From assembly GCF_019665785.1 (NCBI RefSeq), contig NZ_CP081149.1:2790001-2854000 (forward strand): a stretch of DNA of 64,000 bases, in the 5' to 3' direction. A program made the translations under genes and the position numbers. This document shows positions 7,458 through 41,588 of the stretch, one piece after another. The number at the start of each line of letters is the position of its first letter. Position 1 is the stretch's first letter. The DNA comes from Deefgea piscis. GTDB taxonomy: Bacteria > Pseudomonadota > Gammaproteobacteria > Burkholderiales > Chitinibacteraceae. The notes beneath the pieces were generated by a model. That model saw only the letters and a program-made list of their open reading frames with translations. It made no database searches and was not told the DNA's origin.

Positions 7458-9185
7458 CTAAGACAAAATCGCCAGCGACCACTGCCCCTGTCCATGACAA
7501 TCGAGCACTTGGCGGTGGTATTCAATCAGACCCGAGCGATGCCCTACGCTCACCATCACGCCTTTTTTCATGCACTCGGCAACGGCGGCATAGAGCTTGG
7601 CTTCGCCAGCCGCATCGAGTGCTGAACTGGACTCATCCATTAATAAAAAGTCCGGTTCCAGCAATAAAACACGCAGTAAAGCCACGCGTTGCTGCTCACC
7701 CAAGCTCAGCACGTGCGACCATGAATCCACTTCATCAAGTCGCGGCAATAGATGACTAAGCCCTGCTAATTCAAGCAAATCGGCCAGCGTTGCGTCTTCG
7801 TTCCGTGCGACTTGCGGGTAGAACAAAGCGGCGCGCAAAGTGCCCAATGGCATATACGGTTTTTGCGACAAAAACAACGCTTGCGTTGTTGTTGGCATCG
7901 CCAACTCACCCGAAGCATAAGGCCATAACCCGGCTAAGGTTCGCAATAAACTCGACTTACCGGCACCCGAAGGTCCTCGAATCAACACCGAGTCACCCGC
8001 ACGCAATTGCAAATTCAAATTATCAATCAACAATTGACCATTGGGTTTACTGACGCAAATCTGCCGCCACTCAATACCACCCTCTTTGGCTGTCACCGCC
8101 AAACGGGGCAAGGCTTGTGCCGCTTGTAAACTGGTTTCAAATGTCGACAAACGATCAATAATAGCTTTCCAATTGGCCAAGGTGCTAAAGCTGCCGATAA
8201 CAAAATCTAAAGCACCATACACCTGACCAAAAGCCGAATTAATCTGCATTAGGCCGCCAAAAGAAATTTCTTTGGCAAAAAAACGTGGTGCAGCAACAAT
8301 CAGCGGAAAGATAATCGCCAATTGTCCCCAAAACGACGTAAACCAAGTAAGTTTTTTATTTCGGCGCATCAGCGCCCAAAAATTGCCCACTACCGCATTA
8401 AATCGCTGCGATAAGCGCTGCTGCTCTTCTTGATCGCCATGATATAAAGCAATCGACTCGGCGTTTTCGCGCACGCGAATCAAGCCAAAACGAAAATCGG
8501 CTTCAAAGCGCTGTTGCAAGAAATTCAAACTCACCAAAGGCCGGCCCAATAGCACGGTAATCAACGAACCAATGACGGCATAAATAATCGCCACCCAGAC
8601 CATATAGCCATGAATGGTGATTTCTGTGCCCGCCAGCATAAAGCTAATCGGCCCCGATAGCGTCCACAAAATACCAATAAATGACACCAGCGTGACCAAT
8701 GCACGCAATAAACCCAAAGACAAAGACAGCGAAATCGCAATAAACTGCCCCACGTCTTCGGCGATACGCTGATCAGGATTATCTGTGCCTTGATCGGTCA
8801 ATTGAATCCGGTAAAAATTATTATCCGCCAACCAGCGCGCCGTAAAATGCTCCGTTGCCCAGCGTCGCCAACGGATCTCCAGCATTTGCTGAAACCACAT
8901 CGTGTACACCGCAATCACGATATAGATAAACGCCAGATAGCCAAATTTATATAAAGCCTGCTCAAAACCCTTTTTATCGAGGTTTTGCATCGTGTCGTAA
9001 AATTCTTTGTACCAGCTATTAAACTGCACACTCATAAACACCATGCCGAGCGATAGCGCAATAATCAGCGCCAATAAGCCCCAAGCTCGATATTTTTCTT
9101 CTGACACCCAATAAGGTTTGGCCAATTGCCAAAAATTGCGAAACAAATGATTCACTTTTGGCGCTTGCGCGGCGTTTGTATTCAT
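7458..9185 (-). CDS. YddA/SbmA-like ABC transporter, fused permease and ATPase
   Basis: Inner-membrane half-transporter (575 aa) of the family with an SbmA/BacA-like membrane domain (ABC_membrane_2, related to ABCD acyl-CoA carriers). Several hydrophobic segments cover residues ~35-330 (e.g. GLLALIIALSLGMVFMSV, FGYLAFIYIVIAVYTMW). The C-terminal nucleotide-binding domain has Walker A GPSGAGKSSLLR, the ABC signature LSLGEQQR and Walker B FLLMDESSSALD, with the switch His in VGHRSG. The substrate is unknown; peptides, cobalamin and lipids are reported for relatives. No binding protein lies nearby, so export or facilitated uptake is more likely than classical import. Confidence 0.88.
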   Translation of the reverse strand: MNTNAAQAPKVNHLFRNFWQLAKPYWVSEEKYRAWGLLALIIALSLGMVFMSVQFNSWYKEFYDTMQNLDKKGFEQALYKFGYLAFIYIVIAVYTMWFQQMLEIRWRRWATEHFTARWLADNNFYRIQLTDQGTDNPDQRIAEDVGQFIAISLSLSLGLLRALVTLVSFIGILWTLSGPISFMLAGTEITIHGYMVWVAIIYAVIGSLITVLLGRPLVSLNFLQQRFEADFRFGLIRVRENAESIALYHGDQEEQQRLSQRFNAVVGNFWALMRRNKKLTWFTSFWGQLAIIFPLIVAAPRFFAKEISFGGLMQINSAFGQVYGALDFVIGSFSTLANWKAIIDRLSTFETSLQAAQALPRLAVTAKEGGIEWRQICVSKPNGQLLIDNLNLQLRAGDSVLIRGPSGAGKSSLLRTLAGLWPYASGELAMPTTTQALFLSQKPYMPLGTLRAALFYPQVARNEDATLADLLELAGLSHLLPRLDEVDSWSHVLSLGEQQRVALLRVLLLEPDFLLMDESSSALDAAGEAKLYAAVAECMKKGVMVSVGHRSGLIEYHRQVLDCHGQGQWSLAILS

Positions 9186-16361: not shown

Positions 16362-16858
16362 TAATTAGCCTCTACCGTTTTAACTTTAAACCGCCCCATC
16401 ACATCGCCTGTAATTTGCCATAGGCTATCTCGCCCCTGTAGCTCAAGCTCAAAAGATTCAATCACCCCATCGGCGGGGAAAATAACTTTGTCGCCCAAAG
16501 GGCGATTTTGCTGATTGATTTTTTGCCAACGCACCTGCACACCGTCTGCCCACGGCAAGGCACGTAAGCCTTCACGATCTTTTAATACTTCCCACTCTTG
16601 GCGCTGATTTTTAAACCAAAACTGATACGCCGCACCATCGCTAGTCCAAGCCAAAGCATGGCCGCTGGCCAAAGCCTCATCGCGCGCAGCTTCAAATTGC
16701 AGCACCAAGCGCTCAGCCGCAGCTTGCGCGCCATCCCCCCGATTAAAATGAAACACCGTCACACTGGTGACAATCAAAATAATCGCCGTTACCACGAGGA
16801 TTTCGAGCAGCGTGAAACCCGACTGTCGATCCGATGAAATGTTTTTTTGAACGATCAA
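16361..16858 (-). CDS. gspH: Type II secretion minor pseudopilin GspH
   Basis: 165 aa pseudopilin linking the tip to the GspG shaft. Leader ends SDRQSG, then FTLLEILVVTAIILIVTSV with Glu at +5. The only plausible start for this leader is a TTG at 16858 with AGGA about 12 nt upstream; no ATG precedes the leader in frame. TTG initiation may keep expression low. It is followed directly by gspI (TAATG). Upstream, a 173 bp repeat-rich gap separates it from gspG. Confidence 0.87.
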   Translation of the reverse strand: MIVQKNISSDRQSGFTLLEILVVTAIILIVTSVTVFHFNRGDGAQAAAERLVLQFEAARDEALASGHALAWTSDGAAYQFWFKNQRQEWEVLKDREGLRALPWADGVQVRWQKINQQNRPLGDKVIFPADGVIESFELELQGRDSLWQITGDVMGRFKVKTVEAN

Positions 16859-38746: not shown

Positions 38747-39384
38747 AACTCAATCTCAAAAATTTCAAAAAGTACCCCGATCATGACAGTGCCAGCGGCA
38801 AATGCAATCGGTATTTATTTTTGGTGGGACCGCAATCTGGTCCCTTAAATTAATTTGGCGAGCGTGACTGTATGCTTACAATCAAAAACTATAGGTATAG
38901 CTCTACATAACTTATAAATAATAGCCTACAGCCTTATACCTATAAAAAAAATCAACAACTAGTTACACTCAATCCAAGGGTTGAATTAAACTTACGTCAC
39001 CACTCAGCAAAATTACCAGTTTGGCTGGTTCATTAATCCGCCATCCACGCAGCAAGATTCTGAACGGCAGACACTCGCTGAAATTGAAAGTGATCACAGA
39101 TCGACTACGGTCGATTGATTGAGCTGGCCACCGCTCGCTGCGCCCGGCTCTGACTAAAGCTATGTACTTCATCTATTACAGAGTGGTCGCGCACAACTGG
39201 GTTTGATCCGCGCGCAAACAGAATATGGCACTGTTTTTTCCGCACAACCCTAGCGCAACTCAAACTACCCAACGGGCCACACACAATACAAACCAATGTC
39301 ATCTGGTCACGCCACGCCAAGCTAGGGCTCGCATGCAGCTGGCTAATCAACCATATCAGCCAAACTGAAAAAACCATTTAAAAC
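38747..39384. other. Non-coding stretch left of the guaA island
   Basis: 638 bp without a supported gene. It contains a GGGACC/GGTCCC hairpin near 38826-38846, a perfect 10 bp GGTAT-type palindrome (38890-38899 and 38935-38944), and ATCGAC-TACG-GTCGAT near 39094-39109. Two minus-strand open frames (38969-39172, 39105-39377) overlap each other in different frames, lack start signals and were rejected. This was presumably the flank directly downstream of guaA before the island arrived. Confidence 0.5.
38890..38944. repeat. GGTAT-armed palindrome upstream of M32 peptidase gene
   Basis: TATAGGTATA (38890-38899) and TATACCTATA (38935-38944) are perfect 10 bp arms around a 35 nt loop. Confidence 0.5.
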
Positions 39385-39472
39385 AAAAAGCCCGCAGGAA
39401 TGCGGGCTTGAGGGGTGTTTGCTGCTACTTAGTGCCGGACGTTGCCAGACACGGGATCATTCCCACTCAATC
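39385..39472. repeat. Left 88 bp direct repeat of the guaA island (att remnant)
   Basis: Identical over 88 bp to 41501-41588. It contains a copy of the guaA terminator hairpin (AAGCCCGCA-GGAA-TGCGGGCTT) and, at its right end, the last 16 nt of guaA including the stop (coding strand GATTGAGTGGGAATGA). Identity stops sharply at 39473. Confidence 0.9.
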
Positions 39473-39883
39473 ATCAACAATCAGCATAACCTAATGATTT
39501 ATTTAACAAATTTATCAATCAATAAACATAACACCATGAAAAATGCCATGATCAGACCATAGAGTTTTTCACACCTCTAGCTAACCAATGCGCAAGCAAA
39601 CCAACAAAGTTAACCAGCCCCAAACCCTTCCGCTATAACCATTTTGATTAAAAAACCACACTTTATAACTGTTTTTGCGGCGGAGTAATCGATTTTGTGT
39701 CGGAACCAAGTAGCTATCGACCAATAACGAACCTTTGCTACTTTGCCAGCCAACGGGCATTTCCATTTGATAAAAAATTTTACAATAGAATCATAACATT
39801 AGGCAAAAAGCCATCACCTTTGTGTTGACAACAAAAACACACTAATTTATTGTTTACACAACAAACAACAGCGGAGCATCATT
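39473..39883. other. Upstream region of the island's parA-like gene
   Basis: 411 bp, AT-rich. It holds the predicted promoter/operator at 39823-39864 and otherwise no supported gene. A 61-codon minus-strand frame (39581-39766) has no ribosome binding site and no recognised similarity and was not called. A partition-like site (parS) could lie here, but no clear iteron array was seen apart from the TTGTT/AACAA palindromes. Confidence 0.45.
39823..39864 (+). promoter_or_regulatory. Promoter with overlapping palindromic operators for the HTH-ParA gene
   Basis: -35 TTGACA (39825-39830), 17 bp, -10 TATTGT (39848-39853). TGTTG-A-CAACA (39823-39833) covers the -35, and TTGTT-TACAC-AACAA (39850-39864) covers the end of the -10 and the expected start. 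The paired sites suggest autorepression by the HTH domain of the gene product, as seen in ParA/SopA-type operons. The ATG is 20 nt further on. Confidence 0.6.
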
Positions 39884-40918
39884 ATGAAACTTTTAGGAAT
39901 CTCTGAGATTGCAACATTACTCAACGTTTCTCGTCAAGTAATTTCCAACTGGAAAAGTCGAAAAGAAGGGTTTCCACAACCGATTAGCACACTTGCTAGT
40001 GGCCCTGTATGGCTCGCTGAAGACATTGAAAGTTGGGCTGAAACTGAAGGTATCACCATTTCTGAAAAAGTAGTTGGTTCCATTGAGAACAAGGGGTCTA
40101 GTCGTTATGCTTCTATTGTTGCAATGATGAACATGAAAGGTGGGGTGGGGAAATCTACTCTTACACAGAATATAGGTTGGTATGCTGCATATAAAAAAGG
40201 AATGCGCATTTTATTTGTTGACTTGGATCCTCAGTTCAACTTGAGTCAATATGTACTTGGTGCTAACGGCTACGAAAAGCTGATAGATGCAAAATCTCCT
40301 ACGGTAGAGGTAATTTTTGAAAAGAATAGTAACTGCATTGATATTGGCAAGTTGATTCAAAAAGTCCATGAATGGGATGATGATTCTTGCATTCATATTA
40401 TCCCTGCTAATTTGGAATTGGCATTCTCAATGCGTAATATTCAAGGCCACGAGCATATGCTTCGAGACAAATTAGAAACGTTGCGTACTGAATATGATCT
40501 GATTATCATGGATTGTGCACCAACAGAATCAAGCATGTCTACAGCCTCATACTTTGCAGCAGACAGCATATTCATCCCTGTTAAACCTGAGTTCTTATCA
40601 ACCATTGGATTGCCTTTACTCGCACGTTCTATGAGTGAGTTTGCTATCGTGCACCCGACTGAAAAAGTGCCTACTGTTGGAGGGATTATATTCAACGATA
40701 TTGGCGATAAGCTTGAACACAATAGATCAGTGAGAACAGTAAAAAAAGTTGCCACTGCAAATCAATGGCCAATTTTTAATTCACAGATAAGCCATTCCGA
40801 CTCTTATCCTGCTGGCTCTCGTGCAGGGAAGCCAATTTTTTTAACAGATCATGCGCGGAACTCAAAAATCTCTGAGTTTGAGCAGGTGGGTGACGAATTT
40901 TTAAAAAGGTTGACATAA
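39884..40918 (+). CDS. HTH-ParA fusion ATPase of the guaA island
   Basis: 344 aa. Residues ~4-58 form a MerR/AlpA-like winged helix-turn-helix (ISEIATLLNVSRQVISNWKSR ... VWLAEDIESWAE). A ParA/Soj-type deviant Walker ATPase follows: Walker A KGGVGKST at 85-92, A' DLDPQ at 113-117, Walker B-like IIMDCAPTESS near 205. Plasmid ParA proteins of type Ia also have an N-terminal HTH and repress their own promoter, which fits the operators upstream. The next gene, 3 nt away, is presumably its partner. It could partition an excised island, or belong to an accessory (possibly defence) module; the sequence does not decide. Codon use is AT-rich relative to flanks. Confidence 0.85.
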   Translation: MKLLGISEIATLLNVSRQVISNWKSRKEGFPQPISTLASGPVWLAEDIESWAETEGITISEKVVGSIENKGSSRYASIVAMMNMKGGVGKSTLTQNIGWYAAYKKGMRILFVDLDPQFNLSQYVLGANGYEKLIDAKSPTVEVIFEKNSNCIDIGKLIQKVHEWDDDSCIHIIPANLELAFSMRNIQGHEHMLRDKLETLRTEYDLIIMDCAPTESSMSTASYFAADSIFIPVKPEFLSTIGLPLLARSMSEFAIVHPTEKVPTVGGIIFNDIGDKLEHNRSVRTVKKVATANQWPIFNSQISHSDSYPAGSRAGKPIFLTDHARNSKISEFEQVGDEFLKRLT

Positions 40919-40921
40919 AAA

Positions 40922-41413
40922 ATGTCTAAAGCTGAGCAGTTAATTAAAGAATTGGCGGACTTGTTGATTAAGTACGATGCCAATGATTGGCAACTTGCTG
41001 TCGCAGCACTTAAAAATGGTGCCACATATTTAAGCTCAATCGAGAATATGCAGAAGCAACCAGCAAGAAAACAAAATCAAACAAAGCGCAAAGTTGGACT
41101 ATCTAAGTTTACTCTTCCAGTAGAAACTGAACCAGAAACTGCTGAAGTGTTAATGAAAATATATAGATTGGCCTCCATAAAGAATTCCAAAATTCCACTC
41201 GGGAGGCTGAGAGAGTTATATATAGATTTAGGGGGAAAAGAGGAAACTCCAAAAGAGAGGACTCCTTTAGCCAGAATGTTGACTCTTCAAATATCAAAGC
41301 TTTCTGTTGAAAAAATAGAAAATATTAAAAAGCTAATTCAAGAGAATGGAAGTGACATTGAAGGTGATTACGAGCGTTGGTTTAATATCATTAGAACTAA
41401 TAGATTGGAATAG
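40922..41413 (+). CDS. Small partner protein of the HTH-ParA ATPase, unknown family
   Basis: 163 aa, 3 nt after the ATPase gene, so surely co-transcribed. N-terminal helical segment (SKAEQLIKELADLLIKYDANDWQ), a basic linker (residues ~42-62, QPARKQNQTKRKVGLSKF), then a helical C-terminal half ending RWFNIIRTNRLE. No HTH was recognised with certainty. Position and basic linker suggest a ParB-like DNA-binding adaptor or an ATPase stimulator. No family is recognised, and function is inferred from context only. Confidence 0.75.
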   Translation: MSKAEQLIKELADLLIKYDANDWQLAVAALKNGATYLSSIENMQKQPARKQNQTKRKVGLSKFTLPVETEPETAEVLMKIYRLASIKNSKIPLGRLRELYIDLGGKEETPKERTPLARMLTLQISKLSVEKIENIKKLIQENGSDIEGDYERWFNIIRTNRLE

Positions 41414-41500
41414 AACGATGACACGGCCAAGCACATAACGTTACCAGCTCCAATATAGGCTTAGGCTAAACATTGCCAGTCAATGCCAAGCCAAGACGTG

Positions 41501-41525
41501 AAAAAGCCCGCAGGAATGCGGGCTT
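41501..41525 (-). terminator. guaA terminator
   Basis: AAGCCCGCA (41504-41512), GGAA loop, TGCGGGCTT (41517-41525), followed on the minus strand by TTTTT. It lies within the right direct repeat; an identical copy sits at 39388-39409. Confidence 0.85.
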
Positions 41526-41588
41526 GAGGGGTGTTTGCTGCTACTTAGTGCCGGACGTTGCCAGACACGGGATCATTCCCACTCAATC
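41501..41588. repeat. Right 88 bp direct repeat of the guaA island (attachment site)
   Basis: Identical to 39385-39472. It spans the authentic guaA terminator and the last 16 nt of guaA (41573-41588). The sequences diverge at 41589, where guaA coding continues. Confidence 0.9.

Follow-up and report, generated by a model that had tools for sequence, protein, structure and literature searches.

A two-gene element flanked by attachment sites and lacking an integrase at the guaA 3′ end of Deefgea piscis

The 3′ end of guaA in Deefgea piscis is occupied by a small element of two genes, which has the attachment core of a guaA-targeting integrase family at both ends and carries no integrase gene of its own. 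It lies in a window of 64,000 nucleotides (assembly GCF_019665785.1, contig NZ_CP081149.1, positions 2,790,001 to 2,854,000), the whole stretch of DNA analysed here, to which all positions refer. The element is probably a non-autonomous cassette, flanked by att sites and integrated at the guaA core by a tyrosine integrase that it does not encode. The evidence comes from the ends of the element, from the occupants of the same site in related genomes and from the two cargo genes, the coordinates of which are collected in Table 1.

Table 1. Features of the cassette and its borders (positions in the window)
Feature	Position	Strand	Remarks
guaA	41573..43174	-	last 16 nt form the attachment core; present in 43/43 genomes of the family, this one included
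attL core GATTGAGTGGGAATGA	41573..41588	-	agrees with the attP/attB core of vB_EcoP_ZX5 in the available text of PMC9782041
Repeat copy R1	41501-41588	-	within the left arm
Left integrase arm	41465..41588	-	core, TCTGGCA-type repeats, terminator hairpin, second TTGGCA/CTGGCA cluster; contains R1
Terminator hairpin in left arm	41504-41525	-	
Partner protein, 163 aa	40922..41413	+	all-helical prediction of moderate confidence
ParA-type ATPase with N-terminal HTH, 344 aa	39884..40918	+	PF13614 4e-31, phrog_164 4e-44
Promoter-like site TTGACA-17-TATTGT	39825..39853	+	consensus match only; upstream of parA
Candidate ORF, 43 aa	39697..39828	+	starts where the Fic gene of sister elements starts
Right arm	39456..39699	-	upstream region of the absent Fic gene and right-end sequence; ends in the attR core
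attR core GATTGAGTGGGAATGA	39457..39472	-	sequence identity
Repeat copy R2	39385..39472	-	core and 72 bp of left-arm sequence in place of the native guaA spacer/terminator
Native flank fragments	39256-39367 and 39164-39243		match parts of the gene after attR in G023, LysR-like by eye

The 88-bp repeat and the cassette that it bounds

The first-pass annotation of this DNA had reported a perfect direct repeat of 88 bp, and its two copies, R1 and R2, are indeed identical at 88 of 88 positions, with a spacing of 2,116 bp. A DNA search of the whole 3.575-Mb single-contig genome with the repeat (threshold E<=0.001, four candidates scored) returned these two copies, both in the window, and no third, so that a repeat dispersed through the genome, which the annotation had named as a refutation of its own reading, is not what was found. 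The DNA in between had been described as AT-rich with two genes, and it is: the GC content of the interior is 38.4%, compared with 48.3% for the window, and none of 310 overlapping 2-kb segments of the window is as low; the genes encode proteins of 344 and 163 aa. The reported absence of an integrase was borne out both by Pfam, PHROGs and NCBIfam scans and by tblastn with two guaA integrases.

The cassette extends over 2,116 bp from core to core, with a left arm of 123 bp and a right arm of 244 bp; it retains both attL and attR and holds no genes for integration or transfer. It is a bounded, att-flanked element without an integrase. The annotation had spoken of a minimal or satellite form, or a remnant. 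Its integrase-less integrated element at the guaA 3′ end stands, and “remnant” fits less well than “bounded cassette” because both ends are complete, with decay still a possible origin.

An attachment arm of the guaA integrase family

Each copy of the repeat contains the 16 final nt of guaA, a minus-strand gene with its stop at 41573, followed by 72 bp of attachment arm that bring a replacement terminator, and the copies share the core, a TCTGGCA-type repeat and the terminator hairpin. The earlier description of the repeat as the guaA end plus its terminator was thus right for the 16 nt and not for the terminator, which the alignments of relatives place in the arm. The comparison set for these alignments consisted of 42 other genomes of the family (43 with this one), guaA being found in all 43. 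The 123 bp of the left arm, counted from the core into the cassette, are 97% identical to G029, which belongs to another genus and whose element bears an integrase, 93% to G035, 92% to G023 and 90% to G019. In these four, a gene for a tyrosine integrase of some 400 aa comes after the arm, that of G035 being truncated (309 of 404 residues matched by tblastn). Left-arm matches were obtained in 14 of the 43 genomes, ten of them (this one included) with at least 80 bp and the remaining four short and at the terminator; the match in G016 is weaker (73%). In G020, G034 and the second element of G027, the left-arm similarity stops at the terminator.

In G023, the integrase combines a Phage_integrase with an Arm-DNA-bind_3 domain, and a gene of the Zot family lies after it; similar genes were recognised by eye in G019 and G029. 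The Zot family is a marker of filamentous phage, and Zot is merely the family's name. Seventeen IMG/VR loci have integrases related to that of G023, at 53-91% identity, and in all 12 of the 17 that were examined, several of these loci being nearly identical to one another, the core precedes the integrase match by 314-325 bp, with a homologous left arm after the core; an arm pattern had no exact match in viral_contigs. Since the integrase-bearing elements of both the relatives and IMG/VR begin with the arm, the 72 bp are the attachment arm of a guaA-targeting tyrosine integrase family, which brings its own terminator, and not simply the terminator of guaA. The native guaA terminator was also considered as a simple source of the repeat and was set aside, as terminators vary within a genus and the arm is common across genera. 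In four IMG/VR prophage loci (L272, L274, L277 and L284, near 7637-7697), right-arm matches of 40-63 nt were seen directly before the core, and these may be tandem elements at guaA.

The family extends to the E. coli phage vB_EcoP_ZX5, the integrase of which is 54.5% identical to that of G023. Its published core at the guaA 3′ end is attgagtgggaatgatt in the available text of PMC9782041, and the window core together with the next base agrees with it over the 16 shared bases. The window therefore has the layout of this attachment family, a core of 15-17 bp and then an arm with repeats and a terminator.

The right end and the far copy of the repeat

The 244 bp of the right arm are 80% identical to G019, 79% to G020, 77% to G008 and 74% to G007; G019 and G020 are of the same genus as the source and have the arm at full length. 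Right-arm matches occur in 12 of the 43 genomes and are (nearly) full length in these four and in this one. The match of the window to the sister elements starts at the start codon of their Fic gene, beyond which no match to Fic is present and the ParA pair stands in its place. The Fic gene is full length in G007, G008, G019, G020, G027 and G034, and reduced to fragments in G021, G022, G029, G030, G031 and G035.

From the perfection of the repeats, the annotation had concluded that the insertion was recent, which the repeats alone do not show: the far ends in G020, G019 and G023 repeat the core of about 15 bp only. In G023, for example, the core at the far end is followed by a different terminator and no arm, so the repeat is the core alone. 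The 72 extra identical bases here thus imply that the chromosomal side already had, or later got, the same arm, that is, a second event. The first position that matches native flank lies 104 bp beyond the beginning of the far core, as far as it does in G023, so the arm in R2 sits where the native spacer and terminator would be; the identity between R1 and R2 stops exactly at the terminator T-run. On the simplest account, an earlier element of the same family was lost by an exchange at the terminator and left its arm behind, the alternative being that the arm was copied from one side to the other. In G010, guaA is seemingly free of any element, yet it has an arm-like terminator (89% over 87 bp) and no right-arm match; this may be the scar of a lost element and agrees with an earlier occupant as the origin of R2, without being proof. 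Further out, at 39164-39367 of the window, only two fragments are left of the gene located after attR in G023.

Other elements at guaA

The DNA that follows guaA differs widely, even within the genus (read in 30 of the 43 genomes). Two guaA integrases were compared by tblastn with 21 sequences, namely the window, 19 stretches downstream of guaA of unequal length and the right-arm stretch of G008, and an integrase of this kind was found in five of the 21 only (G007, G019, G023, G029 and G035). Integrase-less elements recur. That of G020 is 3.8 kb long, with cores at both ends, a left arm of 86% identity over 87 bp and a right arm of 79%, and its genes match the PADLOC candidate defence models PDC-M38A, PDC-M38B and PDC-S24 (Fic). 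In G019 (L126/L255), three cores lie at 1, 16465 and 20243, oriented from guaA: a 16.5-kb integrase-bearing prophage comes first and is followed in tandem by an integrase-less element of 3.8 kb, which lies between the cores at 16465 and 20243 and carries NERD-UvrD and Fic. This second element shares the core and the right arm (80%); its left arm is different, with no match to that of the window, though the layout is alike by eye.

Nine proteins of sister elements were run through PADLOC. Four gave nearly full-length candidate defence matches (three from G020 and the NERD-UvrD protein of G019), one had restriction-enzyme matches over part of its length only, and four had no match (three from the ParA element of G027 and one from G029). 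By Pfam, an AIPR protein is present in G021. The neighbours at the guaA site are therefore not all recognised defence genes.

Several elements also stand in a row at guaA in G027 (L139/L263), where the first has a different class of left arm, which also matches in G021, G028, G029, G030 and G033, and its own ParA (279 aa) with neighbours of 177 and 241 aa. Further, less clean arrays are seen in G007 and G027. In G029 (L125/L257), two copies of the Zot-region genes lie around the contig ends, which may stem from a prophage in tandem or from the treatment of the contig as circular.

A blastn comparison of the window with the relatives' stretches found no shared DNA outside the arms and the native flanks, and no packaging or replication signal is therefore evident. 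The annotation had named relatives with the same two genes but without the left repeat as an outcome that would count against it; no such relative was met in the genomes searched. Neither an empty site of this lineage nor another strain carrying the cassette came to light, and no paper on such guaA cassettes was among the literature matches listed.

The ParA-type ATPase and its partner

The first cargo protein was assigned to the ParA/AAA_31 group, with an N-terminal HTH, in the Pfam, PHROGs and NCBIfam scans. The partner has no match in Pfam, NCBIfam or PADLOC and one weak match in PHROGs (E 0.02), and its AF2 model, of moderate confidence (pLDDT 68), found nothing in the PDB at E<=0.001. The promoter-like site ahead of parA is one of 11 such matches on both strands, where 5.4 were expected. 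Motifs like TTGTGTTGACAAC / TTGTTTACACAAC are repeated, by eye, at 39820-39880 ahead of parA and are possibly a candidate operator of the HTH.

Among the 42 other genomes of the family, the partner gene was not found and ParA had one distant match, in G025 (41%, without the HTH). Wider searches reached closer relatives. Among the best 120 of 2,536 matches, full-length ParA relatives that include the HTH have 49-58% identity, the best of them 54-58%, and those with names are mostly alphaproteobacteria (22 aligned). In the genome_contigs scan, a full-length ParA was present in two of the best 80 loci listed, L044 (Sphingomonas) and L045 (a Rhodospirillaceae MAG), and in both a homologue of the partner (28-29% identity) comes directly after it, so that in the loci found the pair occurs outside the source in alphaproteobacteria only. 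The surroundings of L044, with an Abi_2-like protein (below the cut-off), a DUF4062 protein and an OLD-like TOPRIM protein, look like a defence neighbourhood; those of L045 do not clearly do so. No direct repeats surround the pair in L044, and in L045 there is one short pair alone, inside the upstream gene.

No ParA of at least 60% identity was present among at least 5000 plasmid records counted or among 105 phage records, and the partner had no match in either collection. The best 80 of 133 relatives in viral_contigs reach 43% at the top, with matches that start after the HTH, and none of 368 other genomes of the class and 397 of the phylum (overlapping sets, mostly with five candidates scored each) had a ParA at E<=1e-90. 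Searches with the partner, of limited sensitivity, returned itself alone from the single sequence and six matches, itself included, from a three-row alignment. It is unrelated to the 177-aa neighbour of the G027 ParA (hhalign probability 0.2). As for known anti-phage defence systems, neither cargo protein has a whole-protein PADLOC match, the ParA giving partial ones only (best 4e-6, residues 3-62). The cargo is most likely a host-protective system of two genes, for defence or for stabilisation, a role suggested by the company it keeps and by its domain type.

Helper integrase and proposed origin

An integrase of guaA-type specificity elsewhere in the genome, which the annotation had entertained, was not found: the genome has eight Phage_integrase genes, the best of which are 28-29% identical to the two guaA integrases, and none was recognised as cognate. 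Nor was a Zot gene found in the genome, Zot being a loose marker by the controls of that search (matches in 5 of 14 genomes, three archaeal by name). The cassette is therefore probably immobile in its own genome at present, and movement now would need an incoming helper, on which it most likely depends.

In the proposed mechanism, a guaA-specific tyrosine integrase would have acted in trans on the 16-bp core at the guaA 3′ end to integrate the cassette. The integrase may have come from prophages like those of the sister species with the same core and arm, at least one of which, having a Zot-family gene, would be of the filamentous type. The cassette would supply what is needed in cis (the core and both arms) and nothing in trans, its left arm restoring the guaA 3′ end and giving guaA a new terminator. 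Recombination between the cores by an integrase in trans would release an excised circle and leave guaA intact, and a RecA-mediated crossover of the two 88-bp copies would have the same outcome. The 72-bp arm of the far copy would go back either to terminator exchange with an earlier element, after whose loss the present cassette entered at the core, or to copying of the arm across. If a helper stood beside the cassette in tandem, as in G019, both could leave as a single unit. The present cargo sits where sister elements have their Fic gene next to the right arm.

A bolder extension, for now speculative and rather unlikely as a whole, sees guaA as an integrase-driven loading dock at which integrase-less defence cassettes of a few kb are shuffled by the integrases of visiting filamentous prophages. 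After tandem accretion, such cassettes may exit in the helper virion, and the ParA pair would be a new defence or anti-helper system. Filamentous particles set no strict genome length.

Against integration in trans, it is possible, if doubtful, that the cassette is a dead remnant of a full integrase-bearing element that lost its integrase and other genes by internal deletion. Its left arm is of the long kind found with integrases (123 bp, 97% to G029) and differs in this from those of G020, G034 and the second G027 element, the body of the Fic gene is gone with its upstream region kept, and the truncated integrase of G035 shows that decay happens at the guaA site. What such decay leaves unexplained is that both arms and both cores are intact, that both genes are open and that the integrase-less elements of G020 and G019 have full-length candidate defence genes. 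A tandem array, in which R2 would be the left end of a second, almost wholly deleted element and two adjacent copies gave the 72 bp, is tentative to a like degree. Elements do stand in a row in G019 and G027, and R2 does hold arm-type sequence, but the native flank is 104 bp from the core as in G023 and the identity ends at the terminator T-run, so that a terminator swap fits better than a random deletion, the two not being mutually exclusive.

A static hot spot seems unlikely; here guaA and the genes downstream would serve as tracts for the homologous exchange of cassettes between strains, and site-specific recombination would play no part at present. Such a hot spot would suit the lack of an integrase in the cassette and of a cognate one in the genome, and the switch of cargo at the start of Fic resembles the outcome of recombination between ends that the elements share; the guaA core at the far end, however, is a mark of past site-specific integration, and the arms are common to genera with different downstream genes. 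Least probable, and by some way improbable, is that the parA pair is a plasmid-type partition cassette from an integrated plasmid. The combination of HTH and ParA resembles type Ia ATPases (TIGR03453 7e-18, far below its cut-off), but the partner has no ParB-type domain in Pfam or NCBIfam, the cassette has no replication gene, and the plasmid and phage records described above hold neither a ParA of at least 60% identity nor a match to the partner.

Implications and comparison with known systems

The interest of the cassette lies in its very small size, its link to prophages, the recurrence of integrase-less candidate-defence elements at one site and the ParA pair. It suggests that phage integrases, besides those of conjugative elements, can sustain integrase-less defence cassettes, and, with two genes in 2.1 kb, it is a very small substrate from nature for studying movement in trans by a known integrase family. 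Elements of this kind would escape any island search that relies on an integrase. ParA and its partner form an uncharacterised unit of two genes, in a place that carries candidate defence genes in relatives.

Among known systems, a precedent at guaA is CR2-sul2, an integrase-less unit flanked by att sites that the GIsul2 integrase can mobilise in recA-deficient E. coli, according to the available text of PMC9376610. The cassette is likewise an integrase-less unit bounded by guaA-type att cores; CR2-sul2 differs in having a resistance gene as cargo and in lying inside GIsul2 with its integrase, whereas the cassette carries the ParA pair. The guaA prophages of the vB_EcoP_ZX5 type (Uetakevirus) have the same core and integrase family as the relatives of the cassette, but they are complete phages with their own integrase, which the cassette is without; it is thus not an autonomous guaA-integrase element. 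With regard to type Ia plasmid partition, a ParA with an HTH is present in the cassette and a ParB-type partner is absent.

Phage satellites (e.g., P4-like elements and PICI) typically have their own integrase and genes for replication, regulation or interference with packaging. The cassette resembles them in being small, integrated and dependent on others (in part PMC13376191, from the text available), but no integrase and no replication, regulatory or packaging-interference gene of theirs was recognised in it. In the available text of PMC5704250, CIMEs are defined as elements that keep attL and attR and have no genes for integration or transfer. The cassette is like them in keeping both att sites without such genes at the 3′ end of a gene, and tandem accretion of the CIME kind is seen in its relative G019. 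CIMEs differ in that they are described as decayed ICEs or IMEs, whereas the integrase-bearing relatives of the cassette are prophages: where its ends occur together with an integrase, the element is prophage-like (with Zot in G023) and not an ICE, and no intermediate towards ICE or IME descent was seen. The cassette is therefore best filed as a CIME-like element in the guaA hot spot that would be moved by an integrase acting in trans.
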